This document shows positions 2 to 28,794 of a DNA stretch of 29,066 bases, in pieces. A program made the position numbers and the translations under genes. This stretch comes from a virus. The notes under the pieces are model-generated. The model made no database searches. It was not told the origin of the DNA and worked only from the letters and a program-made list of their open reading frames with translations. The stretch is from positions 1 through 29,066 of the IMG/VR virus record IMGVR_UViG_3300025117_000199; one strand, written 5' to 3'. Numbering within the stretch: position 1 is the stretch's first letter; each line of letters begins with the position of its first letter.

Positions 2-2164
2 ATTGTTCGTGTTCTTGGACCTGGTAGTAGATCTGTAAACGGCGCAGCAGTCACGCCAGGTTATACAGCTGAAAGCCTTTGGGGCATTACCGCAGGTTCA
101 GGTTCTGTTGGTGCCGTTCTTGCTCTTCTTGAAATAACTGGAAGTTCTGGTGTCAAAGTTACAGATCTTGGAAACGATACATTATTCCTTAGTGGTACTG
201 GCACAAATGGTGGTGTTTTTGGTGTTGGTATTACTGCATCTTTCTTGACTGGTAGTTCAAATTATATTAAAAAGGTTCTTAATACAGATCCTACCAAATT
301 TACCGAACAGGGATATTACGTTCGTGATGTATATGACTATGCTACCAAAGTATTGGCTGGTGGCAATGCTCTATTTTCTTCTGCCAGCTATGCAATAACA
401 AATTTTCAAATTGGCTACAATTCTGGTTCAACGCCATGGGTAAAATCTCAAACTTTCAGTGCTGGCACAGAATATGATCTTTTTAAATTTCATACGCTGG
501 GCCACGGTGAAGCAGAAAATGGAAGATTTAAAGTTTCTATTAAGAATATTAAGGTTTCCGCAGCTCCAAGTGTAAATGATTTTGGAAAATTTGATGTTGA
601 AGTTCGTTTATTTGGCGATACAGACAAAAATGTCAGTGTTGTAGAATCGTTTCCAAATCTTTCTTTGGACAATACAGATACAAATTATATTCTTCGTGTC
701 ATTGGTGACAAATATTTGCAATATGATGCAGCCAGAGACAAGATGGTTGAGTATGGAAGCTATAGCAATGGCTCTAAGCTTATTCGTATTGAATTGACCA
801 CAGGTTCTTTCCCTGGTACAGCCTTACCCTGGGGATTTAGAGGTTTGGCAAAGCCAGCTCTTATGATTCTTTCAGGCACAGGGGCTACTGATACTGGAGT
901 AAACGCTGATGTTACGAATGGTGTTGTGGCTTTACCGTATGTTGCAGATCTGAAGGATAAAGAAACACAAGCTGAAGCTCAAACGTACGTTTATTTTGGC
1001 ATGGAAACTGTTCTTTCTGGTTCTGTTAAATCAAGATTTACATTATTGCCAACAATGACTGGATCTGATACAGACTTTACTTTAACGAATGTTTCTGGAA
1101 ATTCTACGAGTACGGCACTCTATAATGCTTCAAATCCTGCTGCTTCGCAGAAGTCTCCTGGAGACACTACGTCTCATACGGTGCTTGCTTCGGATTTGGC
1201 AAAATTTACTATTCCTGTTGCGTTTGGTTTTGATGGCTTTGACAGGAGATTATCAAATCCTTTGGATAACGAAGCGCAGCTTGCAACAGTAACCCAGCTT
1301 GGTACACAAGCGTTGAGACAGGCTGTTGATATTATAAAGGATCCTGATTTTGTTGATATTAATCTATTGGCAATTCCTGGAATTTATAGTAGCAGAGTCG
1401 TAGACTACGCTATTACGAAGATTTCAGATAGATCAGACGCATTTTATGTTCCTGACGTGACTGGTTCTACGGTTACTGCTGTAGTTAATGAAGTACGCGG
1501 TCGTGGTTTTGATACAAATTATGCTGGCATGTATTATCCATCAATCAAAATTTTTGATGATGTTAATAAGGTAGCTAAAGTTGTTCCAGCATCTCTTGCT
1601 GCTATCGGTGCAATTGCTTTCAATGACCGTGTAGCTTACCCGTGGTTTGCTCCTGCTGGTTTGAATAGAGCTGGCCTTGGCAGAGACACAATTGGTTTTG
1701 ATGTTCTCGGCGTTGAAGATCAACTTACACAGACAGAAAGAGACACTCTATATGATGCTAGAGTTAATCCAATTGCTAGATTCCCAGATGTGCCCCAGGG
1801 CGTAATTTGGGGACAAAAGACACTGCAATTGAAACCCTCGGCATTAGACAGAATTAATGTTCGTAGATTGCTCATTAGAGCTAAAAAGCTTATTGCATCT
1901 ACGGTTAAATTCCTTGTATTTGAGCCTGGGAATGCAAATACGATGACAAGATTTAAACAGCTTGTCAATCCTATTCTTGCGGATATTCAGCAAAAGCAAG
2001 GTCTAGATAAGTTCCTTGTTGTGATGGATGAGAAGACAAGTCCTCCTGAATTGATTGATAGAAATCAACTAAAGGGAAAGATTTTTCTAATCCCAACAAG
2101 AACAGCAGAAGCCATTAGCATTGATTTTATAGTAAGCCGTTCGGGGGCTTCGTTTGAAGAATAG
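2..2164 (+). CDS. Tail sheath protein (5' end outside window)
   Basis: Contractile-tail sheath subunit, which polymerises around the tail tube and contracts on infection. The reading frame is open from base 2 to the stop at 2164 (720 codons seen), so the true start lies left of the window; the TTG at 245 is internal. Support comes mainly from the C-terminal third: a 'YPWFAPAG' segment, a 'ARVNPIARF' stretch, then 'VIWGQKTL' followed by the 'INVRRLLI' helix, the order seen in T4 gp18 and other sheath C-terminal domains. The N-terminal visible half is Gly/Ser/Thr-rich, as expected for variable outer sheath domains. A homing endonuclease gene follows after 8 bases and then the tail tube gene, so sheath-tube synteny is kept apart from that insertion. 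Family assignment is confident; subdomain limits are not. Confidence 0.93.
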   Translation: MVRVLGPGSRSVNGAAVTPGYTAESLWGITAGSGSVGAVLALLEITGSSGVKVTDLGNDTLFLSGTGTNGGVFGVGITASFLTGSSNYIKKVLNTDPTKFTEQGYYVRDVYDYATKVLAGGNALFSSASYAITNFQIGYNSGSTPWVKSQTFSAGTEYDLFKFHTLGHGEAENGRFKVSIKNIKVSAAPSVNDFGKFDVEVRLFGDTDKNVSVVESFPNLSLDNTDTNYILRVIGDKYLQYDAARDKMVEYGSYSNGSKLIRIELTTGSFPGTALPWGFRGLAKPALMILSGTGATDTGVNADVTNGVVALPYVADLKDKETQAEAQTYVYFGMETVLSGSVKSRFTLLPTMTGSDTDFTLTNVSGNSTSTALYNASNPAASQKSPGDTTSHTVLASDLAKFTIPVAFGFDGFDRRLSNPLDNEAQLATVTQLGTQALRQAVDIIKDPDFVDINLLAIPGIYSSRVVDYAITKISDRSDAFYVPDVTGSTVTAVVNEVRGRGFDTNYAGMYYPSIKIFDDVNKVAKVVPASLAAIGAIAFNDRVAYPWFAPAGLNRAGLGRDTIGFDVLGVEDQLTQTERDTLYDARVNPIARFPDVPQGVIWGQKTLQLKPSALDRINVRRLLIRAKKLIASTVKFLVFEPGNANTMTRFKQLVNPILADIQQKQGLDKFLVVMDEKTSPPELIDRNQLKGKIFLIPTRTAEAISIDFIVSRSGASFEE

Positions 2165-2172
2165 AATTCTTA

Positions 2173-2763
2173 ATGATTTCAGGCATTTATAAGATAACCA
2201 ACAATATAAACAACAAGGCTTATATTGGAAAATCTGGCGATATTGAAAATAGATGGTATTCTCATGTTGTTGAATTAAAAAATAATCGTCACGGGAATGA
2301 ACATTTGCAAAATTCTTGGAATAAGCACAAAGAGAACAATTTTTTATTTGAAATACTTAAAGAAATAAATGACGACATACAATTAAAAATAGCTGAAATA
2401 TGTTATATTTACTTGTATGATTCTGATTTATCAGATAAAGGATATAATAAAACTGTAGGTGGTGAAGATTTTGGTTATTGTTATTTATCAGACGAAACAA
2501 AGACAAAAAGAAATAAAGCTATTTCTCAAGCACTAAAAGGTCGTCAAATAAAAAATAGAATCACGACTGGTATGTTAGGAAAGAATCATTCAGAAAAAAC
2601 AAAACAAAAAATTTCAGAAAACAGAAAAGGAATATTGGCTTGGAATAAAGGCTTAACAATTGCCGACAAAAGAGTAAAAAGCAATATAACAGAAAAATCA
2701 AAATCAACACAATTCAAAAAGGGTAATATTCCTTGGAATAAAAGAATTAATGTTCCTAATTAA
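2173..2763 (+). CDS. GIY-YIG homing endonuclease with NUMOD3-type DNA-binding repeats
   Basis: Free-standing site-specific endonuclease, a selfish gene that spreads by cutting alleles lacking it. GIY is at residues 4-6 and YIG at 17-19. Arg27 and Glu75 fall at the same numbers as the catalytic Arg and Glu of I-TevI. His31 and the 'HLQNSWNKH' segment (44-52) also fit the family. From about residue 105 there are short basic NUMOD3-like units ('GKNHSEKTKQKISENRKG' near 132-149), then two 'WNKG/WNKR' repeats. The gene sits between sheath and tube genes. It is more A-rich than its neighbours and has no good ribosome site before ATG 2173, consistent with acquisition. No intron boundary is evident, because both flanking genes look whole. 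It could alternatively be called a SegA-F-like endonuclease. Confidence 0.92.
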   Translation: MISGIYKITNNINNKAYIGKSGDIENRWYSHVVELKNNRHGNEHLQNSWNKHKENNFLFEILKEINDDIQLKIAEICYIYLYDSDLSDKGYNKTVGGEDFGYCYLSDETKTKRNKAISQALKGRQIKNRITTGMLGKNHSEKTKQKISENRKGILAWNKGLTIADKRVKSNITEKSKSTQFKKGNIPWNKRINVPN

Positions 2764-2787: not shown

Positions 2788-2804
2788 GGAGGGTGACTCT
2801 CACG
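2788..2804 (+). promoter_or_regulatory. Ribosome-binding site overlapping the tail-tube start
   Basis: A strong GGAGG lies at 2788-2792. The only in-frame standard start upstream of residue 13 is GTG 2793, which directly abuts it and is too close for normal initiation. An in-frame ACG at 2802 is 9 bases after the GGAGG, at good spacing, and would give a product starting Met-Ser-Glu-Ile. The frame is closed just upstream by TGA at 2781. Either a GTG is used with a weak upstream purine site, or initiation is at a rare ACG codon. Confidence 0.5.
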
Positions 2805-3290
2805 TCTGAAATTTTAGATATCCAACAAATGCTCGCAGATACATATGAACCAAAAAGAAAGTTCAGATGGATAATTGCAATCAACGGTATTGATGCATTT
2901 ACAGCCAAAACAGCATCTCGCCCACAGCTTACTTTTGATGAAACTGTAATTGATTATATTAACCAAAAGCGTTACCTCTCTGGCAAAGGTACATGGGCAC
3001 CTCTTAATTTGACACTATATGATCCTATCGTACCTAGTGCCGCGCAGAAAGTGATGGAATGGATCAGGTTGGATTGGGAAAATGTAACGGGACGTATGGG
3101 ATATGCAGCTTTCTATAAGAAAACAATTAATTTAAAGCTTCTTGATCCTGTCGGTGCAGTAGTGGAAGATTTCGAATTACAGGGATGTTGGATCCAGGAA
3201 GCAAACTTCAATGATCTTGATTATGCCTCCAGCGATCCTGTTGAAATATCTCTCGTATTACGCTACGATCAGAGTATTTTAAACTTCTAA
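2793..3290 (+). CDS. Tail tube protein (T4 gp19-like)
   Basis: Subunit of the inner tail tube through which DNA passes. The product is about 160 residues, the usual size of gp19-like tubes (T4 gp19 is 163). An N-terminal helix is followed by the beta-rich segment 'KFRWIIAINGIDAFTAKTA', then a 'ITLTLYDPI'-like strand pair (here 'LNLTLYDPI') and 'YKKTINLKLLDP'. A final strand region ('VEISLVLRYDQ') matches the conserved tube C-terminus. It follows the sheath gene, separated only by the GIY-YIG gene. The start is uncertain: GTG 2793 lies against the Shine-Dalgarno sequence, while ACG 2802 is better spaced; the next in-frame ATG (2829) would remove part of the first helix. The next gene is 157 bases downstream, after a promoter region. 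Confidence 0.88.
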   Translation: MTLTSEILDIQQMLADTYEPKRKFRWIIAINGIDAFTAKTASRPQLTFDETVIDYINQKRYLSGKGTWAPLNLTLYDPIVPSAAQKVMEWIRLDWENVTGRMGYAAFYKKTINLKLLDPVGAVVEDFELQGCWIQEANFNDLDYASSDPVEISLVLRYDQSILNF

Positions 3291-3447: not shown

Positions 3448-4272
3448 ATGTCTGATTCTATTTTTCAAAAAGCCACAGAGACAAAGCTAGAGAGCGTATC
3501 CAAGGAAGCAGGCTTCCAGGTACCAGTAGAGAATGTTACATTGCCAAGTAAAGGTCTCGTATATCCTATTGGTCATCCATTGAGCAATGAAGAAAGCCTA
3601 GAAATTAAATGTCTCACTGCAAAAGAAGAGGATATTTTGACATCCCGCGCGCTCATTAAAAATGGTACTGTCATTTCTCAGCTTTTGAAATCTTGTATAT
3701 TGAATAAGTCGGTTGATCCTGATGATATGCTCGTCGGTGATCGAAATGCTATTCTCGTTGCAATAAGAATAACAGGCTATGGTTCTGACTATAAGGTAAA
3801 AATACAATGTCCAGCATGTTCGGAAGATTATGAAAATGAGTTTAATTTATCTCAATTAAAGGTTAAAACTTTATCATCTATGCCATTAAGACAAAATGAA
3901 AACCTATTTGAATATACATTGCCAGGATCTGGTCAAAATGTGCAGCTTAAATTGTTAACTGGACGTGATGAACTTGAAATTTCAAAAGTTGCCGAGAAAA
4001 AGAAAAAGCTCCAGACTCAAATTGATAATTCTGTTACCTCTAGACTCTTCTATTCGGTCATGGCAATTAATGGAGAAACAGATCGACAAAAGCTAAGCTA
4101 CATAATTAATAACATGCGAGCAGGCGATTCTCGGGCGCTGAGACGCTATATTGATAAGGTTGAGCCTGGTGTGGAGATGAAACAAGAGGTTTCCTGCCCT
4201 CATTGTTCCGATCAGTCGGAGGTAAATATCCCACTTGGGATAAGCTTTTTTTGGCCTGACCTCGGTAACTAA
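3448..4272 (+). CDS. T4 gp26-like baseplate or tail assembly chaperone protein, zero-frame product
   Basis: A 274-residue protein between tail tube and tape measure genes, where tail assembly chaperones are encoded in most long-tailed phages. It has two CxxC pairs (Cys121/Cys124 in 'CPACSEDY' and Cys250/Cys253 in 'CPHCSDQS') that probably bind one zinc. It ends with the 'IPLGISFFWPD' segment that I associate with T4 gp26-type baseplate assembly proteins. Start ATG 3448 has an excellent site, AAGGAG at 3432-3437. Seven T's (4246-4252) in the last codons sit where the +1 frame opens (from 4244), so a fraction of ribosomes may slip and add the 4307 gene product as a C-terminal extension of about 93 residues. 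Family identity is moderately sure; zinc binding and frameshifting are inferred. Confidence 0.72.
   Translation: MSDSIFQKATETKLESVSKEAGFQVPVENVTLPSKGLVYPIGHPLSNEESLEIKCLTAKEEDILTSRALIKNGTVISQLLKSCILNKSVDPDDMLVGDRNAILVAIRITGYGSDYKVKIQCPACSEDYENEFNLSQLKVKTLSSMPLRQNENLFEYTLPGSGQNVQLKLLTGRDELEISKVAEKKKKLQTQIDNSVTSRLFYSVMAINGETDRQKLSYIINNMRAGDSRALRRYIDKVEPGVEMKQEVSCPHCSDQSEVNIPLGISFFWPDLGN
4246..4252 (+). other. Candidate programmed frameshift site (U7)
   Basis: In the zero frame this reads AGC TTT TTT TGG, with TAA at 4270. The tRNA-Phe on TTT 4249-4251 can re-pair perfectly with TTT one base downstream (+1) or two bases back (-2). Either shift enters the frame that opens just after a stop at 4241-4243 and runs to 4534. 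The shifted frame reads FGLTSVTKQDLFLEECFNY across the junction, which is protein-like and has no normal start codon before ATG 4307. Lambda G/GT and Mu tail chaperones are made by an analogous shift. Confidence 0.55.
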
Positions 4273-4306
4273 ACAAGATTTATTTCTTGAAGAGTGTTTT
4301 AATTAC

Positions 4307-4534
4307 ATGTATGCATTTCAGACAGGCGATCTTGAGAAGGTTATGGGTCTCCCTGTACCTTACAGAAAATGGCTTATAGAACGCTGGAATAAGCAAAAAG
4401 AGAAAGAACAAAAGGCAAATGGCCAATCTGACCCAAATCAGCCAATGTCGCAGTCAGAACGAATGAAGTTCATAAAAAAAGCTCAAGAAGTTCAGCCAAA
4501 TAGCTTTATGCAGCCCATGAGAAACAAAAAATAA
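4307..4534 (+). CDS. Tail assembly chaperone C-terminal extension, or separate small protein
   Basis: The ORF from ATG 4307 gives 75 residues with 'GLPVPYRKWLIERW' near residue 14, followed by a Lys/Glu-rich helix and a polar tail. There is no convincing ribosome site: only GAAGAG at 4289-4294. The same frame is open back to 4244, and the residues before Met form an obvious helix with it (LFLEECFNYMYAF). I therefore infer that the functional product is a fusion to the 3448 protein by ribosomal slippage at 4246-4252, about 361 residues in all, comparable with lambda gpGT. Such an extension normally binds the tape measure protein, encoded two genes downstream. If frameshifting does not occur, this is a short unknown protein started at 4307. 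Confidence 0.62.
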   Translation: MYAFQTGDLEKVMGLPVPYRKWLIERWNKQKEKEQKANGQSDPNQPMSQSERMKFIKKAQEVQPNSFMQPMRNKK

Positions 4535-4585: not shown

Positions 4586-4900
4586 ATGCAAGATCTAGTC
4601 AGTCCAGAAGTAATGAATGCTCAGCTATCTGACCTCAAAAAGATAGTTTACGACCTAATTACTATATCTGGAGAACCAAAATCAGGGGTCACAAAGGAAC
4701 AGCTTTCTTATGCACTCATGGAGCTTTCTAAAATTAGAGATTCTTTCAAAGAAATGGAAGCTGATAGAGTGAGCTTTAATAAAGAACTTGATGAACATTC
4801 TAAAAAGGTAGAGAATTTACGTAATGGCTCTAAGTATTTTTTGGATAAGTATGGAAAAGATTTTTATCCAAAATGGTATAAGAGCTTTTTAAAGCTTTAG
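4586..4900 (+). CDS. Small coiled-coil protein between chaperone and tape measure genes
   Basis: A 104-residue acidic/basic helical protein I do not recognise. Heptad-like spacing runs from about residue 10 to 85 ('LSDLKKIVYDLI', 'LMELSKIRDSFKEME', 'HSKKVENLRN'), suggesting a coiled coil. It ends with an aromatic segment 'YGKDFYPKWYKSFLKL'. The start ATG 4586 has a good purine-rich site (GAAGGGAAGGA). It has its own probable promoter and lies immediately before the tape measure gene, so a role in tail length control or baseplate assembly is a reasonable guess from position only. No catalytic motif is visible. Confidence 0.7.
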   Translation: MQDLVSPEVMNAQLSDLKKIVYDLITISGEPKSGVTKEQLSYALMELSKIRDSFKEMEADRVSFNKELDEHSKKVENLRNGSKYFLDKYGKDFYPKWYKSFLKL

Positions 4901-4915
4901 GAGATTTTTACTTAA

Positions 4916-7132
4916 TTGGCAATAGACAATGACGATCTTGAAGAATCTGGTGATTTAGCTTCTAAGCTTAAAGGTGTTCTTTCTGATATTGAAAATATAG
5001 TCTCTAGGACTAACGATCAATTTGCTGGTGGGCAAAGAAATCTCACCAACATGAATGCTGTTCTTGAAGAAGTCCTTGCGACATCCGAGGACTTGTCTAG
5101 AAGTTTTGTTAAAGCACGCGATCTTGAATCTGCGATGATAAAAAACTCTAGGATTTTTGAAAAAGTCCAAAGAGAAGCTTATAAATTTCTTGATCATCAA
5201 AACAAGCAAAGAATCGCTGACATAAAAAGGGTTGCGGAACTTGAAGGAAAATCTGGTGAAGATTTAAAGTTTGATCTTCTTCAACAGCAACAATTTCATA
5301 GAAACCTTGTAGAAATAGTAGAAAACGAATTAAAACTTACAAAGAAGAAAGCTGATCTGGCTCTATTAGAATCTATCAGAATTGGAAATATTAAGGATGC
5401 GATTGAGGATCTTGGTAACAAAATAAGAAACCCAGACAAGCTATTCTCTTCAATGCTCGGCACGGCTGGGCAGTTGCCATCTAAAGTTTTTGATGCTGCC
5501 AAAGGTTCAAAGAATCTTGGTGAGACTCTTTCTAAACTCACCGTTCCTGCATTAGATAAAATGGGTGGTTTTGCAAAAGTTCTTTTTAGTGCAAGTGGTT
5601 TTCTAATTGCTGGTGTAGCCTTAGCAACAGCAGCTCTAGTTGGTTTGTATGCTTTGTTTAAGAATTTTTGGGAATTTATGGATAAGAAGGTTATGCCTGC
5701 ACAGGCTTCCTTTAATAAAGAAATAGGTTCATCATCTGAAAATTCTGCACGATTGAAAAACGAAATGACAGCTACGGGAGTTCAGTTTGAACTTCTTGGG
5801 AAATCTTTTGAGGAAGGTGCTCAATTTTCTACTGATTTTACGAAAGCATTAATGTCTACGTCCGCCGCGTCAAAAGAAGCACAGCAACTTGGCAAAGAGC
5901 TTGCTCTTGTTGTAGGATTAACGGCAGAAGAGTCTGGAAATCTTATTATGCAGTTCCAAAAACAAGGCAATAGTCTTGCAGATGTAAGAGATATGTTTGG
6001 AGAAGCAGAAAAAGGAGCTAAAGCTTATGGTCTTCCTGTGAATGATGTGTTGAGAGATTTAGGAAAATATCCTAACATTCTCGCTCGCTTTGGTACATCA
6101 AATAGGAAAGAATTTGCTAAATCTGCTGTTATTGCCAAAAGTTATGGCTTAGATATTGGAAAAATTAACGAAGCATTTGGTAAACAGCTTGATACATTTG
6201 AAGGTTCCGCCGATGCATCAGCAAAATTGAATGCTATATTTGGAACGACAATTAATTCGTTTGAGCTTATGTTAGAGACTAATCCAGAGAAACGCATGGA
6301 GATGCTCAGAAAACAATTGATTGCTCAAGGAAAAGAATGGAATAAGCTTAGTGTTTTTGAAAGGAATGTGATTACACAGACTCTCGGTGTTGACGAAGCT
6401 ACGGCCTCGTTGGTTCTCTCATCAGACGAAGAAAGAAAGAAGCTTGAAAGAAAAGCCAACCAAAAAAAGAAAGAAATAAGAATTAACGAAGAATGGAATA
6501 AGAGCCTTACGACAATCAAATCAACGCTTATGGCTTGGGGAGTAGAGCTTGATAGGGTCATGAGAGCGGTGACTGGTCTTATATCTACAATTTTTGGATG
6601 GGATACTCCTGGGAAAAACATGCAAGAGCTAGCAAGCTCTTTGGTCAAAACTTTTCAAGACTTAACGACATGGCTTAATAATACGAACGAAAATTGGAGC
6701 AATTGGAAAGGATTAGATGGATACGGTAAAGCTTTAAAGGTTATTGTTGAGACTGTCCAAAATCTTTATAAAGCTTTTAAATTACTCAGCGGTATTACCA
6801 TTTTTCAGGCACTATGGGATTTTGGAAAAGCTTTGTACAGTGGTGCTTCTTTCGGCGAAGCCCTTTCTTCGGCGAGTGCCAGAATCCAAGGTGATGTGCC
6901 ATTTTTAAATGAACTTACGGGCAGCTCTTCTATGCCAGCCCCACCTGCACAAATTAAAAATACATCTACACCAACAGCAACACCACTGACAAGTGGTGGT
7001 GGATCATCTACTGCATCAACGCGCTCGGCAGGCGGTGCTTCTACTGGAAATATTATAAAGATTGAGCTTGCAGCCGTATATTTGGATGGTAAAAAGATTG
7101 GCGAAGCACAAGTCAAATATAGTAGGCAATAA
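4916..7132 (+). CDS. Tail tape measure protein
   Basis: The long helical protein that sets tail length inside the tube and is released on injection. It is 738 residues and almost wholly helical. It has coiled-coil stretches at about 40-165, one strong hydrophobic segment at about 222-248 ('GFLIAGVALATAALVGLYALF') typical of tape measure proteins, long amphipathic helices through 650, and a Gly/Ser/Thr-rich linker (675-715) before a short C-terminal beta tail. Start is TTG 4916 with AGGAG at 4899-4903. It lies downstream of the chaperone pair and upstream of baseplate genes, the canonical position. No lysozyme or peptidase domain is evident, so it seems a plain tape measure. Closest functional counterpart in T4 would be gp29. 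Confidence 0.85.
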   Translation: MAIDNDDLEESGDLASKLKGVLSDIENIVSRTNDQFAGGQRNLTNMNAVLEEVLATSEDLSRSFVKARDLESAMIKNSRIFEKVQREAYKFLDHQNKQRIADIKRVAELEGKSGEDLKFDLLQQQQFHRNLVEIVENELKLTKKKADLALLESIRIGNIKDAIEDLGNKIRNPDKLFSSMLGTAGQLPSKVFDAAKGSKNLGETLSKLTVPALDKMGGFAKVLFSASGFLIAGVALATAALVGLYALFKNFWEFMDKKVMPAQASFNKEIGSSSENSARLKNEMTATGVQFELLGKSFEEGAQFSTDFTKALMSTSAASKEAQQLGKELALVVGLTAEESGNLIMQFQKQGNSLADVRDMFGEAEKGAKAYGLPVNDVLRDLGKYPNILARFGTSNRKEFAKSAVIAKSYGLDIGKINEAFGKQLDTFEGSADASAKLNAIFGTTINSFELMLETNPEKRMEMLRKQLIAQGKEWNKLSVFERNVITQTLGVDEATASLVLSSDEERKKLERKANQKKKEIRINEEWNKSLTTIKSTLMAWGVELDRVMRAVTGLISTIFGWDTPGKNMQELASSLVKTFQDLTTWLNNTNENWSNWKGLDGYGKALKVIVETVQNLYKAFKLLSGITIFQALWDFGKALYSGASFGEALSSASARIQGDVPFLNELTGSSSMPAPPAQIKNTSTPTATPLTSGGGSSTASTRSAGGASTGNIIKIELAAVYLDGKKIGEAQVKYSRQ

Positions 7133-20996: not shown

Positions 20997-21617
20997 ATGC
21001 AAAAATATTATGATATATTTGGTGTGCAATCTAACGCCACTCAAGAAGAAATAAAGAAATCTTATAGGGCTCTTGCTAAAGAATATCACCCTGACAAAGG
21101 CGGGGATGAAGAAAAATTTAAACAGATTACAGAAGCCTATGAAATTCTTTCTGGAAAAAGACACCCGCCCAAAGATTATAATGCACCCCATTCAGGTTTT
21201 GGTGGTTTTGATATAAACGAAATACTTAAAAATTTTAATTTTGGGTTTGGGAGAGGAGATTTTAGACCACAAGAAAACAGGCCGCCAGAAGAGAAAGATA
21301 TCGTTTTTGGTCTTAAAATAAGCTTAGAAGACATAAAAAAAGGAAAAGATTTTAATATACAATATGATAAATCTGTTCCTTGCGTAAGGTGTAATGGTAT
21401 AGGTGGATCTTCTAAAAATGTATGCGCCAAATGTAAGGGAGAGGGCGTAATTAGAAATATAGCCAAACAAGGGAATATGATATCAGTATCAACTTCTACT
21501 TGTAATGCGTGCAACGGAAGTGGTATAATGGTAAAAGATCCTTGCACAGAATGTTCGTCAAGAGGATATAATATAAAGGCAGAAAATTTAAAATTTGAAG
21601 TTAAGGAGAAGAAGTAA
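20997..21617 (+). CDS. DnaJ-like co-chaperone with zinc-finger domain (copy 1)
   Basis: A J-domain protein of 206 residues. HPD is at 31-33 within '[24 protein letters not shown]'-type helix III sequence. A Phe/Gly-rich linker (66-90) follows, then a cysteine-rich domain with four CxxC pairs at 129/132, 143/146, 169/172 and 183/186, as in type I DnaJ. The C-terminal substrate-binding beta domains are mostly absent, so it ends shortly after the zinc domain. ATG 20997 was chosen because the frame begins [10 protein letters not shown], the standard J-domain start. It would stimulate host (or phage) Hsp70 during protein folding or complex remodelling. A second, diverged copy lies at 23038. Confidence 0.88.
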
Positions 21618-23037: not shown

Positions 23038-23577
23038 GTGGACAAGTATTATCAAACTTTAGGTGTCCATTCAGGTGCCTCAAAAGATGAAATTAAGAAA
23101 GCCTACAGAAAATTAGCTACCAAACACCATCCCGATCGCGGCGGCAATGCTGAAGCTTTTAAAGAAATTAGCAAGGCATATGAACTGCTTATTGGCAAGA
23201 GACAGCTTTCTAGGGCCGAGAAACGCGAGCAAGAAAAGTCCAAGACACCCATTCAGCCATCATGTTATGATCAGTACAGATATGAACCCCCCAAAAAATA
23301 CACTCCACCTCCTCCACGACGACCAAAGTACATAGAATATGAATATGACAAATATGACAAATGTGATGATTGCGACGGGCAAGGGAAGCTAATAAAATAT
23401 TGTGATTTATGTCACGGTACAGGAAATGTTGTTCAAGGTGGCAGAGATAATGAAGTAATTTTAAAAAAGTGTAAAAGTTGTAATTTTAAAGGTTACAATG
23501 TTATATTTATCTGTAATAGCTGTAATGGCCGTGGTTCAAAATTCGTGGGAAAATTTAAATCAGGATACTGGAAATGA
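23038..23577 (+). CDS. DnaJ-like co-chaperone with zinc-finger domain (copy 2)
   Basis: A 179-residue J-domain protein starting at GTG 23038 ([10 protein letters not shown]). HPD is at 31-33 and a second helix follows ('[15 protein letters not shown]'). Unlike copy 1, the linker is Lys/Glu then Tyr/Pro-rich ('[20 protein letters not shown]', 82-101). Four CxxC pairs lie at 109/112, 122/125, 145/148 and 159/162. It shares layout with the 20997 gene but is otherwise quite diverged, so it is an old duplicate or separate acquisition. It lacks a Shine-Dalgarno site. It overlaps the next gene by ATGA. Role: Hsp70 recruitment, substrate unknown. Confidence 0.85.
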
Positions 23578-24095
23578 AAATCCGTATTGGTTTTTCCACC
23601 ACTGACAAATTGCTGTCAAGAGGGATCAGACTTTTTACTAAGTCAGATCTATCACATACCTATATACGTGTAGATGATACATTTCTAAAAGCTCCACTCA
23701 TTATTCACTCTGACTTCTCTGGTGCTGTTATTCAACACGCAAAAGCATTTGATCTAGAAAATAAAATCATACAAGAGTACGAGATAGATGATTCTAGATT
23801 AGACGACGCATTGGGAGAGAATCTGTGGTGGCTCCTTGGGAAGAAGTATGATTGGGGCAAGATATTTAATCATGCGCTATTCATTATTCTAAGAAGGTGG
23901 ATTGTTAGGAAAATAAAGAACCCAACAGTCAATCCAAGAAAGCTTCTGTGTGTGGATTTTTTACTCTATATTCTCAATGCCGCTGGCATTACTAATCTTC
24001 CAATAGGACATCTTACACCAAAAGATCTTTACGATTGGTGCGAGGCTAATTGGGAACGGCTCGGTTGGAAAAAGATATTAAACCAACATGTATAA
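23574..24095 (+). CDS. Permuted papain-fold (YiiX/NlpC-P60-like) hydrolase candidate
   Basis: A 173-residue protein with the order of a permuted papain-fold amidase or lipid-linked hydrolase: His28 in 'DLSHTYIRV' near the N-terminus and Cys126 in '[12 protein letters not shown]' near the C-terminus, with '[13 protein letters not shown]' between (92-104). These enzymes hydrolyse peptidoglycan peptides or acyl chains. No signal peptide is seen. If cytosolic, it would need a holin to reach the wall. It overlaps the copy 2 DnaJ stop (ATGA) and the TonB-like start (TAATG), so it is expressed with a protein that spans the periplasm. A lysis or envelope role is suggested; direct proof is lacking and the family assignment is from motif order. 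Confidence 0.55.
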
Positions 24096-24856
24096 TGAAA
24101 AAATTATTTCCATTCATTTTATTTTCTCTTATTTTGCATGTGATGAGTTTTTTTTTGTTAAATAAAATAAATCATAGAAATATCCCAAGTAAACCATTGT
24201 TAGTAAAAATTATACAATTAAAAGAAAAAGATGAAGTATCTAATAAAAAAGTTATTTCTTTGCCGAAGCCAAACAATAAAAAACCAAAAGATTCTCAACA
24301 TTTTAGTGAATCAGATAATTCAACCTCAAAAGAAACAATAAATAAAGAAAACACAACCAACGATGACAAACCCACAGGCCAGAACAACCTTAAAGAATTG
24401 GACAATGGAAAGTATAAAGGTATAAATTTATTTCCTCAAGATGCTATTAATTACGGTGCATCTCTAGGTGATGGAGGAGATAGCCAGGACATAGAAGGTC
24501 TTGAGATAGGAGGGCAAACAACTCTAAATTCAAAAGCATATAAGTATGCTTATTTTTTTAACAGAATCAGAGATACGGTTGTACAATTTTGGAAACCTAT
24601 TCCTGAAATTGATGCAGGAGATCCTTACAGAAATAAGTATTTTTATAAAAATAGAAAAACTGTTTTGCGCGTGACTCTTAGCGCGGAAGGTGATATAATT
24701 GATATATATGTGTCAAAATCTAGCGAAGTTGACTTTTTGGATGATTTGGCTTTAGATTCAATGAAACGTTGCGTGCAGTTTCCAAATCCTCCAAAGGGAC
24801 TGGTAAAGGATGGAACTATAATATTTACATTTGGTTTTATTGTAACAAAGGATTAA
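24095..24856 (+). CDS. TonB-like energy transducer protein
   Basis: A 253-residue inner-membrane protein laid out like TonB. Start ATG 24095 overlaps the upstream stop (TAATG); an upstream frame from 24050 is less likely. A short basic N-terminus leads into one membrane segment (5-22, 'FPFILFSLILHVMSFFLL') that keeps Ser11-x3-His15, equivalent to the E. coli TonB Ser16/His20 pair required for coupling to ExbB/ExbD. The periplasmic linker (30-105) is Pro/Lys then Asn/Ser/Thr-rich. The C-terminal domain (about 150-253) has 'VVQFWKPIPEID', 'LRVTLSAEGDI', a 'SKSSEVDFLDDLAL' helix and 'FPNPPKGL', the pattern of TonB C-terminal domains from Myxococcota/Bdellovibrionota-type bacteria. No ExbB/ExbD lies in the window. 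Phage TonB genes are, as far as I know, rare. Confidence 0.78.
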   Translation: MKKLFPFILFSLILHVMSFFLLNKINHRNIPSKPLLVKIIQLKEKDEVSNKKVISLPKPNNKKPKDSQHFSESDNSTSKETINKENTTNDDKPTGQNNLKELDNGKYKGINLFPQDAINYGASLGDGGDSQDIEGLEIGGQTTLNSKAYKYAYFFNRIRDTVVQFWKPIPEIDAGDPYRNKYFYKNRKTVLRVTLSAEGDIIDIYVSKSSEVDFLDDLALDSMKRCVQFPNPPKGLVKDGTIIFTFGFIVTKD

Positions 24857-26670: not shown

Positions 26671-26886
26671 ATGAAGTGTTTCCATTGTCGAAACAATATT
26701 GACAATCCTCTGCGGACAATTATGATTTTTGATGGCAGATTCGCTAATGATATAACCTTGTCACGAGGAGATATGGATATAATAATGGAAGCAACTTTCA
26801 GAATACCCCTCGTTGATGATCAAATTGTAAAATTTTTTCATTATGAATGCTTTAGATTTGTTGCTGGGAAAGAATATGTCACTTAA
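26671..26886 (+). CDS. Small zinc-finger protein, 71 residues
   Basis: Starts at ATG 26671, about three bases from the predicted transcription start. Cys3/Cys6 ('CFHCRN') and His57/Cys60 ('FHYECF') form a likely zinc site around a middle of two short strands ('TIMIFDGRF') and a helix. The product has no recognised family. Its stop lies 11 bases inside the polymerase III gene (ATG 26876), so the two are translationally coupled. It could be a partner or regulator of the polymerase; only position supports that. Confidence 0.62.
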   Translation: MKCFHCRNNIDNPLRTIMIFDGRFANDITLSRGDMDIIMEATFRIPLVDDQIVKFFHYECFRFVAGKEYVT

Positions 26887-27742
26887 GTTTTTTAATTTAC
26901 ATGGCCATTCTGGGGCGAGTCTTTATGATGCTATAGGTTCTCCTGAAAAGTACGCAGAATGGATGATCAAGAATACAGGAGAAGATTCTGGTGGTTTCGC
27001 TATTACAGATCATGGTAATATGAATAACATTGGAGCCCAAGCTAACGCTCAAAAAAAATATGATGCCAAAGGCATTCCTGTTAAAATGCTTTATGGAATT
27101 GAGGCATATTATATACCATCGTTGGAAGAGTGGCATGAATTAAAACTTAAAAAAGACGATCAGAAAAAACAAGAAAAGAAAAAAAGAATTGTAGTTGATT
27201 CAGAAGATGCAGTTGCTGTTATAGAAAACGAGCAAGAATCTAAATCAAAATATTTTGATCCAATTCATCGTAGGAATCATCTTGTTCTCGTCGCACAGAA
27301 TCAGGGTGGCCTTAAAAATCTTTTTAGACTTGTTTCTAGGTCATATAGAGAAGGTTTTTATAAAAAACCCAGAATTGATTTTGAAATGCTTAAAGAACTA
27401 AACGAAGGACTAATTGCGTCAACGGCATGCCTACATCCAGACACACTAATTCAAACATCTGCTGGGTTACTTTCTATTAAAGATGTTGTTGAAAAAGTAA
27501 AAAATAAAGAAGAGTTATTTGTTCTTGGTTTTGACGAAAACTCAAAAAGAGTTTGTTTTAAAAAGATACTTTGGGGTGACAAAACAAGAAAAAATGAGAA
27601 ATTAATTAAAATAAAATTAAAGAACGGAAAAGAGCTAAAACTTACCAAAGATCATAAAGTATATACTGACAAAGGCTGGATTGAAGCTGGAATGCTTACC
27701 AAAGATCATAAAATATTATCTTTAGGTATACCACCAAAGTAA
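26876..27742 (+). CDS. dnaE: DNA polymerase III alpha N-terminal part (PHP domain) fused to split-intein N half
   Basis: A 288-residue product. Residues 1-184 are the PHP domain of a bacterial-type family C polymerase: 'FNLHGHSGASLYDAI' (6-20) and 'FAITDHGNMN' (41-50) give metal-ligand His and Asp, and 'LYGIEAYYI' and 'HLVLVAQNQGGLKNLF' are standard alpha-subunit segments, with a charged insert between (82-127). The alpha sequence stops at 'GLIASTA' (178-184) and at Cys185 an intein begins ('CLHPDT'). 'LTKDHKVYT' (256-264) is the block B motif with His260, and the frame ends at 288 without a C-intein. I prefer ATG 26876 (MSLKFFNLHGHS) over the in-frame ATG 26843, because the PHP domain begins there. 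The rest of the polymerase is at 28763. Function requires protein trans-splicing. Confidence 0.88.
   Translation: MSLKFFNLHGHSGASLYDAIGSPEKYAEWMIKNTGEDSGGFAITDHGNMNNIGAQANAQKKYDAKGIPVKMLYGIEAYYIPSLEEWHELKLKKDDQKKQEKKKRIVVDSEDAVAVIENEQESKSKYFDPIHRRNHLVLVAQNQGGLKNLFRLVSRSYREGFYKKPRIDFEMLKELNEGLIASTACLHPDTLIQTSAGLLSIKDVVEKVKNKEELFVLGFDENSKRVCFKKILWGDKTRKNEKLIKIKLKNGKELKLTKDHKVYTDKGWIEAGMLTKDHKILSLGIPPK
27428..27742 (+). other. Split intein, N-terminal half (104 residues)
   Basis: Starts with the nucleophile Cys (codon 27428-27430) directly after the extein 'LIASTA'. Block A is 'CLHPDTLIQT' and block B is 'LTKDHKVYT', with the conserved His three residues after Thr. It ends 'GIPPK', followed by a stop. 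No C-intein motifs occur before the stop. The partner is 28763-28885. Confidence 0.88.
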
Positions 27743-27771: not shown

Positions 27772-28794
27772 ATGTTATGTATGGTGTGCAAACAAGAATT
27801 TCAACAAACCAGGAAACAATTAACTTGTAGCAAGAAGTGCAGATATACATCCACAAGTAAAGCAAAAAAAGATGAGAAGTTTTTAAGTACTTTGTGGGCA
27901 GAAGTTGGAAAAGAAAATATAAAAAACAAAGTAAACAACTTTCATTCTCCGTTAATGATATATGATTTTTTAAATAGAGATTTTTCACATATATTAAAAA
28001 TGTTTAATATAAATAAGAGAAAATTTAGAAATATAATTAATAAACAATTTATATTTGATATATCTGGATATAACAGACAACAAAACCATTTTAAACTTCA
28101 ATATAAATTTCCGAAAGAAACTTCTTTGGAGCAACTAAAGATAATACAAAAAGAATACGCTCAAAAAGGCCAAAAAGAGACAATAAAAATAAGAAATAAA
28201 AAACACGCTTTTAACAAAAAGCAATCTTTAGAATATTGGTTAAGCGTTTTTAAAGATGAAAATGAAGCAAAAAAAGCATTAGACAAGCACAAAAAAGAAA
28301 GTTCTCCTTTTTGTATAGAATTTTATCTTAGAAGAGGATACAGCGAAGTGGTTGGCCGCAAGGAGATGCTCAAGCTTAATTGTATGGGTGCGTTAGCTGC
28401 TTTAAAAAAATGTCAAAAACCTAGAACAGAAAACACAATAAAAGAAATTTTAGAGAAAAACAATATTGAATATGTGGCACAATATAAAGTAAAACTTAAA
28501 AAAGAAGAAAAAGAGTTTCGTAAAAGTTTTTATGTTTATGATTTTTATTTACCCAAGTTAAATGTATTGATTGATTGTCATGGAACGTATTGGCATTGTG
28601 ATCCAAGAATATATAAATCTGGTGACAATATCAAGTTTGCTGGAAAAGATGAAATTTCCGTTAATTTTGTTTGGGATATAGATGCTCACAGAAAAAAAAT
28701 CGCACTGATAAGAAAATATAGGTATGTTGTATTTTGGGAATTAGATCTTAAAGAAGGTTGTGATGAAAAAGTTATATCAATTTTGCGAAATTGA
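27772..28794 (+). CDS. Free-standing Vsr-like (EDxHD-type) homing endonuclease
   Basis: A 340-residue selfish endonuclease located between the halves of the fractured polymerase gene. N-terminal zinc finger with Cys3/Cys6 and Cys19/Cys23. The middle (60-215) is basic and helical, probably DNA-recognising. The C-terminal nuclease fold carries an 'ENTIKEILEKN' helix (220-230), 'YVYDFYLP' (254-261, Asp257), 'VLIDCHGTYWHCDP' (265-278) and 'YRYVVFWELDL' (317-327). That is the Vsr/DUF559-like order known from endonucleases found beside split inteins. The usual Glu before the His is Asp here. It begins 29 bases after the N-half stop and its end overlaps the C-half start by 32 bases, so insertion is compact. 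Its frame differs from the N half, so it is a separate protein. Confidence 0.78.
   Translation: MLCMVCKQEFQQTRKQLTCSKKCRYTSTSKAKKDEKFLSTLWAEVGKENIKNKVNNFHSPLMIYDFLNRDFSHILKMFNINKRKFRNIINKQFIFDISGYNRQQNHFKLQYKFPKETSLEQLKIIQKEYAQKGQKETIKIRNKKHAFNKKQSLEYWLSVFKDENEAKKALDKHKKESSPFCIEFYLRRGYSEVVGRKEMLKLNCMGALAALKKCQKPRTENTIKEILEKNNIEYVAQYKVKLKKEEKEFRKSFYVYDFYLPKLNVLIDCHGTYWHCDPRIYKSGDNIKFAGKDEISVNFVWDIDAHRKKIALIRKYRYVVFWELDLKEGCDEKVISILRN

Follow-up and report, generated by a model that had tools for sequence, protein, structure and literature searches.

The viral DNA analyzed here (IMG/VR virus record IMGVR_UViG_3300025117_000199, positions 1-29,066; this whole stretch of 29,066 nucleotides is called the window) contains a gp26-like gene whose end is crossed by a second open reading frame, raising the question of whether the two are translated separately or as one tail assembly chaperone of two lengths. 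Comparison with related sequences makes it very probable (roughly 0.87) that a conserved UUU-Y, where Y is U or C, lets some ribosomes skip one base and thereby fuses a second domain to the gp26-like chaperone.

The gp26-like gene and the frame that crosses its end

The window carries a T4-like tail module (Table 1). Its gene order of tube, gp26-like gene, extension, small ORF, and tape measure, the last assigned by position, agrees with the original prediction, which had placed the overlapping genes between tube and tape measure. The tape measure candidate matched no family in PHROG and Pfam-type searches; a tape measure protein is annotated at the equivalent place in phages immuto and LIS04, and in these phages and others the chaperone gene likewise falls between those for tube and tape measure. 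Compared with PDB folds, the AlphaFold model of the gp26-like protein (pLDDT 85.5) came closest to the HK97 tail assembly chaperone, at a level that is not significant (E 0.84). The fusion was modelled as two halves, the gp26-like part and the extension separately, and the extension model consists of four helices (pLDDT 72). A structure search with the extension model returned nothing significant, and the fusion alignment, used as a profile, matched no PDB sequence. The gp26-like protein is also weakly similar to phrog_1854 (P1 PmgB-like, E 0.058); in P1, the gene for PmgB directly precedes that of the tape measure, and PmgB has been suggested as a tape measure chaperone (PMC9024508).

Table 1. 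Positions of tail-module features in the window and the basis of each assignment
Feature	Position	Strand	Basis or remark
Sheath	245-2164		T4-like tail module
GIY-YIG homing endonuclease	2173-2763		Between sheath and tube
Tail tube protein	2793-3290	+	phrog_4542, E 2.4e-30
gp26-like tail assembly chaperone, short form (G / TAC-N like), 274 aa	3448-4272	+	PF12322, E 2.2e-17; phrog_150, E 1.8e-20
TAA in the +1 frame, upstream limit of the shift	4241-4243	+	Direct reading, +1 translation
Putative slip region TTT TTT TGG CCT	4246-4257	+	P-site TTT 4249-4251 would re-pair on TTT 4250-4252
C-terminal extension (T / TAC-C like), ~93 aa, mostly helical	4253-4534	+	+1 frame; hhalign, structure model, pN/pS
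In-frame ATG, likely annotation choice, probably internal	4307-4309	+	Conserved coding upstream; without ribosome-binding site
Small conserved ORF	4586-4900	+	Between extension and tape measure; homologous ORFs at the matching place in relatives L009 and L010
Probable tape measure protein, 738 aa, TTG start	4916-7132	+	Position and size

Homing endonucleases sit among the tail genes: one (GIY-YIG/NUMOD3) splits the sheath from the tube in the window, and an endonuclease-like ORF lies directly upstream of the gp26-like gene in L010 (861-2174). Elsewhere in the window, a PHP-domain ORF, the start of a DNA polymerase III alpha-like protein (26843-27742), continues into a domain like those of intein splicing (Pfam Intein_splicing, E 5.5e-05, below the family cut-off) before it ends, and is followed by a separate endonuclease-like ORF without a Pfam match (27772-28794); together these resemble a gene divided by a split intein with a homing endonuclease. 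The same phage carries two DnaJ-like genes with zinc-finger (CXXCXGXG) regions (20997-21617 and 23038-23577), as well as a TonB C-terminal domain protein (24050-24856; PF13103, E 2.2e-07) with a predicted membrane-like N-terminus.

Read directly, the last eight gp26-like codons before the stop at 4270-4272 are TTT TTT TGG CCT GAC CTC GGT AAC, and they begin with seven T's (4246-4252). The +1 frame opens at 4244, two bases ahead of the T run, crosses it and ends with a stop at 4532-4534. Both the place of the run within these codons and the opening of the shifted frame are as originally described, and so is the claim that the direction cannot be the usual −1: a −1 shift was rejected for the window, where TGA at 4257-4259 closes the frame it would enter. 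The T7 is not a lone assembly error, since near-identical contigs from several other metagenomes have it too. At control sites within the same genes, the +1 frame was open for 75 codons in 1 of 2,529 cases, versus a long +1 frame in 134 of 136 distinct relatives among the matches listed, and the overlap therefore exceeds chance.

The in-frame ATG at 4307 had been described as lacking a ribosome site, and in the window sequence no ribosome-binding site was indeed found near it; nor is there any ATG, GTG, or TTG in the +1 frame between 4244 and 4307. In close relatives, the codons that precede this ATG are under purifying selection in the +1 frame alone, with pN/pS of 0.02-0.10 in that frame and either >1.5 or no synonymous changes in the others. 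The peptide K[QE][DA]LFLEECFNYM, encoded between the gp26 stop and the ATG, is kept in the same relatives while third positions vary. Given the retained peptide and the low +1-frame pN/pS upstream, ATG 4307 is probably not the natural start of the coding region.

Conservation of UUU-Y among relatives and the possibility of a separate start

The overlap recurs in eight near-identical contigs from other metagenomes (L001-L008) and in the more distant L009 and L010, whose extensions are 66% and 59% identical to that of the window (tblastn); CTTTTTTTGGCCTGAC is invariant among L001-L010. Farther away, eight lineages of annotated or jumbo phages share the overlap: in Flavobacterium phage immuto, Microcystis phage Mel-JY01, the uncultured jumbo phage L014, Listeria phage LIS04, Bacillus phage SP-15, Streptococcus phage GXN1, and Streptomyces phages BRock and LuckySocke, the gp26 homologue has a +1 frame across its stop that encodes a small charged protein. 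Extensions of the Mel-JY01 group aligned with that of the window (hhalign 96.5%, 68 columns) and with Thornevirus extensions (hhalign 94%). A scan of prokaryote genomes with the Streptococcus phage protein found no relative. Two checks proposed with the original prediction were run across relatives: the two genes are not well separated, the frames staying overlapped, and they keep both the slip site and, ahead of the ATG, the open +1 frame.

Searches of IMG/VR gave at least 600 matches each for the Mel-JY01 and immuto proteins and 20 loci for the L014 protein. Taking one copy per distinct 90-base context among the matches listed yielded 136 distinct relatives; L016, L020, L021, and L022, which do not have the plain +1 UUU-Y pattern, stand outside this set. 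An in-frame UUU-Y at a C-terminal F-[FL]-[WY]-P motif was accompanied by a long +1 frame in 134 of the 136, which share ancestry and search seeds and are not 134 independent events. The motif was written TTT TTT TGG CCT in 89, TTT CTT TGG CCT in 28, and TTC TTT TGG CCT in 8, with CTT TTT TGG CCT (3), TTT CTA TGG CCT (3), TTT TTT TAC CCT (2), and TTT CTT TAC CCT (1) as rarer forms; the slip context of the Streptomyces phages is CUG UUU CGC. UUU switches between the two codons of the motif, and UUU-Y is in frame whenever the +1 frame is used among the matches listed. The two relatives without UUU have UUC instead (TTC TTG TAT CCT and TTC CTT TGG CCA) and no long +1 frame; in these two (L129 and L133) the domain is in another frame with its own ATG just past the gp26 stop, which we read from the sequences as a natural loss of the frameshift. 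In CCT, the last base doubles as the second base of a +1 Leu codon. It was T at 68 of 68 sites, as that Leu codon requires, versus 27% of the Pro codons in the rest of these genes, which places the shift upstream of this T.

It is very improbable that the downstream domain is instead a separate protein, made without fusion when ribosomes that have completed the gp26-like gene reinitiate, either on ATG 4307 or on a weak codon, for example CUG 4256. Direct starts of this kind exist in the family, in L129 and L133 as just described and perhaps in L010, where an ATG in the +1 frame overlaps the gp26 stop, but in the window no ATG, GTG, or TTG precedes 4307 and coding constraint reaches upstream of it. 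From 3 codons before the slip to 20 after it, moreover, 60 of 69 relatives have no ATG and 38 of 69 have no ATG, GTG, or TTG at all, and a separate start gives no role to the fixed UUU-Y or to the fixed T of CCT. Coliphage 121Q (L020, 2290-2528) and Agrobacterium phage Atu_ph07 (L022, 2580-2834) have the following ORF in the −1 frame. There, CAT TTT TTC (U UUU UUC) precedes the gp26 stop and an overlapping ATG is present; either a −1 shift or reinitiation would fit these sequences.

Mechanism and direction of the putative shift

In the mechanism we favor, a +1 shift at UUU-Y, most ribosomes would terminate at 4270-4272 to give the short form. In a minority, tRNA-Phe on UUU 4249-4251 in the P site, with UGG waiting, would re-pair forward on UUU 4250-4252, and GGC CUG and what follows would be read in the +1 frame to 4534, adding ~93 residues of helical domain; a slip one codon earlier gives the identical protein. 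We infer that this happens in cells and at such a minority efficiency, that the step is +1 rather than −2, and, by analogy with lambda gpG/gpGT, that the products serve tail assembly, the short form perhaps coating the tape measure protein and the rarer long form recruiting tube subunits.

The original prediction had left +1 and −2 undecided. A −2 slip on the seven U's, which would give the fusion one extra Phe, is allowed by the U7 run of the window and is used by phage Mu (PMC5009743), but we regard it as very unlikely here. Relatives with UUC UUU UGG, UUU CUA UGG, or CUG UUU CGC preclude matched re-pairing and yet keep the overlap, those with UUU CUU UGG likewise have the slip codon outside a long U run, and a Mu-type matched site is lacking in the UUC UUU UGG and UUU CUA UGG relatives. 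The tRNA-Phe (anticodon GAA), by comparison, has UUU or UUC one base ahead of it at all 134 sites among the matches listed and can re-pair there. Because that re-pairing is always possible, whereas −2 is fully paired only in long U runs, +1 at UUU-Y is the sole mechanism that fits all 134. Those relatives whose slip codons lie outside long U runs favor +1 of the two steps that had been left. The two steps predict different junction peptides, ...ISFFGLTSVTK for +1 and ...ISFFFGLTSVTK for −2.

RNA polymerase stutter on T7, leaving part of the mRNA one U short and so joining the frames, is scarcely credible: transcriptional slippage does usually occur on homopolymer runs, and in the window a small hairpin (AUCCC-acuu-GGGAU) lies directly upstream, but the hairpin is not conserved among relatives, and 40 distinct relatives among the matches listed retain the architecture although their T runs at the site reach only three or four bases.

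As for the +1 shift itself, a prfB-like slip on CUU-U is excluded by the CUA variants. Downstream RNA structure gave z of −0.97 in the window, 0.40 in L009, −2.50 in L010, and −0.65 in L013, with none shared, and no close Shine-Dalgarno stimulator was found near the slip codon in the window and the relatives examined. A GGAGGT 22 bases before the T run, present in the window, L009, and L010 and with a similar sequence in L012 and L098, was rejected as a stimulator, being far from the slip codon and absent in most relatives examined.

Significance and comparison with known systems

A short and a long chaperone in a pair are a known device of tailed phages, and +1 is the less common direction. 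The kind of system is already known, T4-like tail chaperones having been identified by Vladimirov et al. 2022 according to the papers that cite that study; the new part may be the +1 direction, the UUU-Y variant, and its spread through uncultured phages. We see about an even chance that a very widespread branch of T4-like chaperones, found for the most part in uncultured phages, relies on a hitherto undescribed programmed +1 shift at UUU-Y in which the A site holds a sense codon and no stimulator is evident, the family then having reached the short-plus-long pair by +1, by separate start (L129/L133), perhaps by −1 (121Q-like), and by duplication (gp26/gp51). Switches among a +1 shift, a separate start, and duplication within one family would make the need for a fused long form testable. 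Annotation misses the extension domain or assigns it a wrong start codon: of seven annotated phages with a +1 extension, five list the domain as a separate hypothetical protein, two omit it, and none gives it as part of a fusion.

PF12322 takes in T4 gp26 (E 8.8e-64) and T4 gp51 (E 3.9e-52), each as a full member. Genes 26 and 51 of T4 are reportedly those named in the 2022 work of Vladimirov and colleagues. The gp51 match covers residues 1-201 of 249, leaving ~48 further C-terminal residues, in the last part of which a resemblance to the extension profile falls (score 19.3; shuffles 9.75 ± 2.14, 1 of 150 as high; hhalign 9%), a match to be read as suggestive only. Some T4-like phages replace the frameshift by a short gene and a fused long gene, as Vladimirov, Gautam and Davidson (Virology 2022) are cited in PMC10885494 and PMC12846349. 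The window resembles these T4-like TAC-N/TAC-NC proteins in family, in two-length logic, and in a chaperone gene adjoining that of the tape measure, but where T4 has two separate genes it has one gene and a shifted frame; and where PMC12846349 treats poly-T sites of T4-like TACs as −1 signals, the frame of the window and the comparative sites demand +1 (or −2).

Lambda gpG/gpGT likewise pairs a short chaperone with a longer frameshift form, encoded between the tube and tape measure genes, whereas its shift is −1 and its G protein lies outside PF12322. Long-tailed phages share a conserved tail-gene frameshift (Xu, Hendrix and Duda 2004, as summarized in PMC5009743), and a 2016 review describes the G-T shift as conserved in such phages except T4, with −1, −2, and +1 all occurring (PMC5009743). 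Phage Mu (−2) and haloarchaeal phage HSTV-2 (+1 proposed) are known cases of tail chaperone shifts other than −1 (PMC5009743); they are different phages, and UUU-Y as a +1 site is not described for either in the parts of PMC5009743 that concern them.

There is also a mechanistic likeness to prfB (RF2), where on CUU-U a pyrimidine-rich P-site codon also re-pairs one base forward. At prfB, however, the A site holds a stop codon and a Shine-Dalgarno sequence is adjacent, whereas in the window UGG occupies the A site and the search for a neighboring Shine-Dalgarno found none. At the RF2 site, UUU ranks with the more slippery codons (PMC10885494). If UUU-Y with a waiting sense codon suffices, these chaperone genes, in which the shift would be retained across many phage lineages, would provide a simple natural system for forward ribosome slippage.
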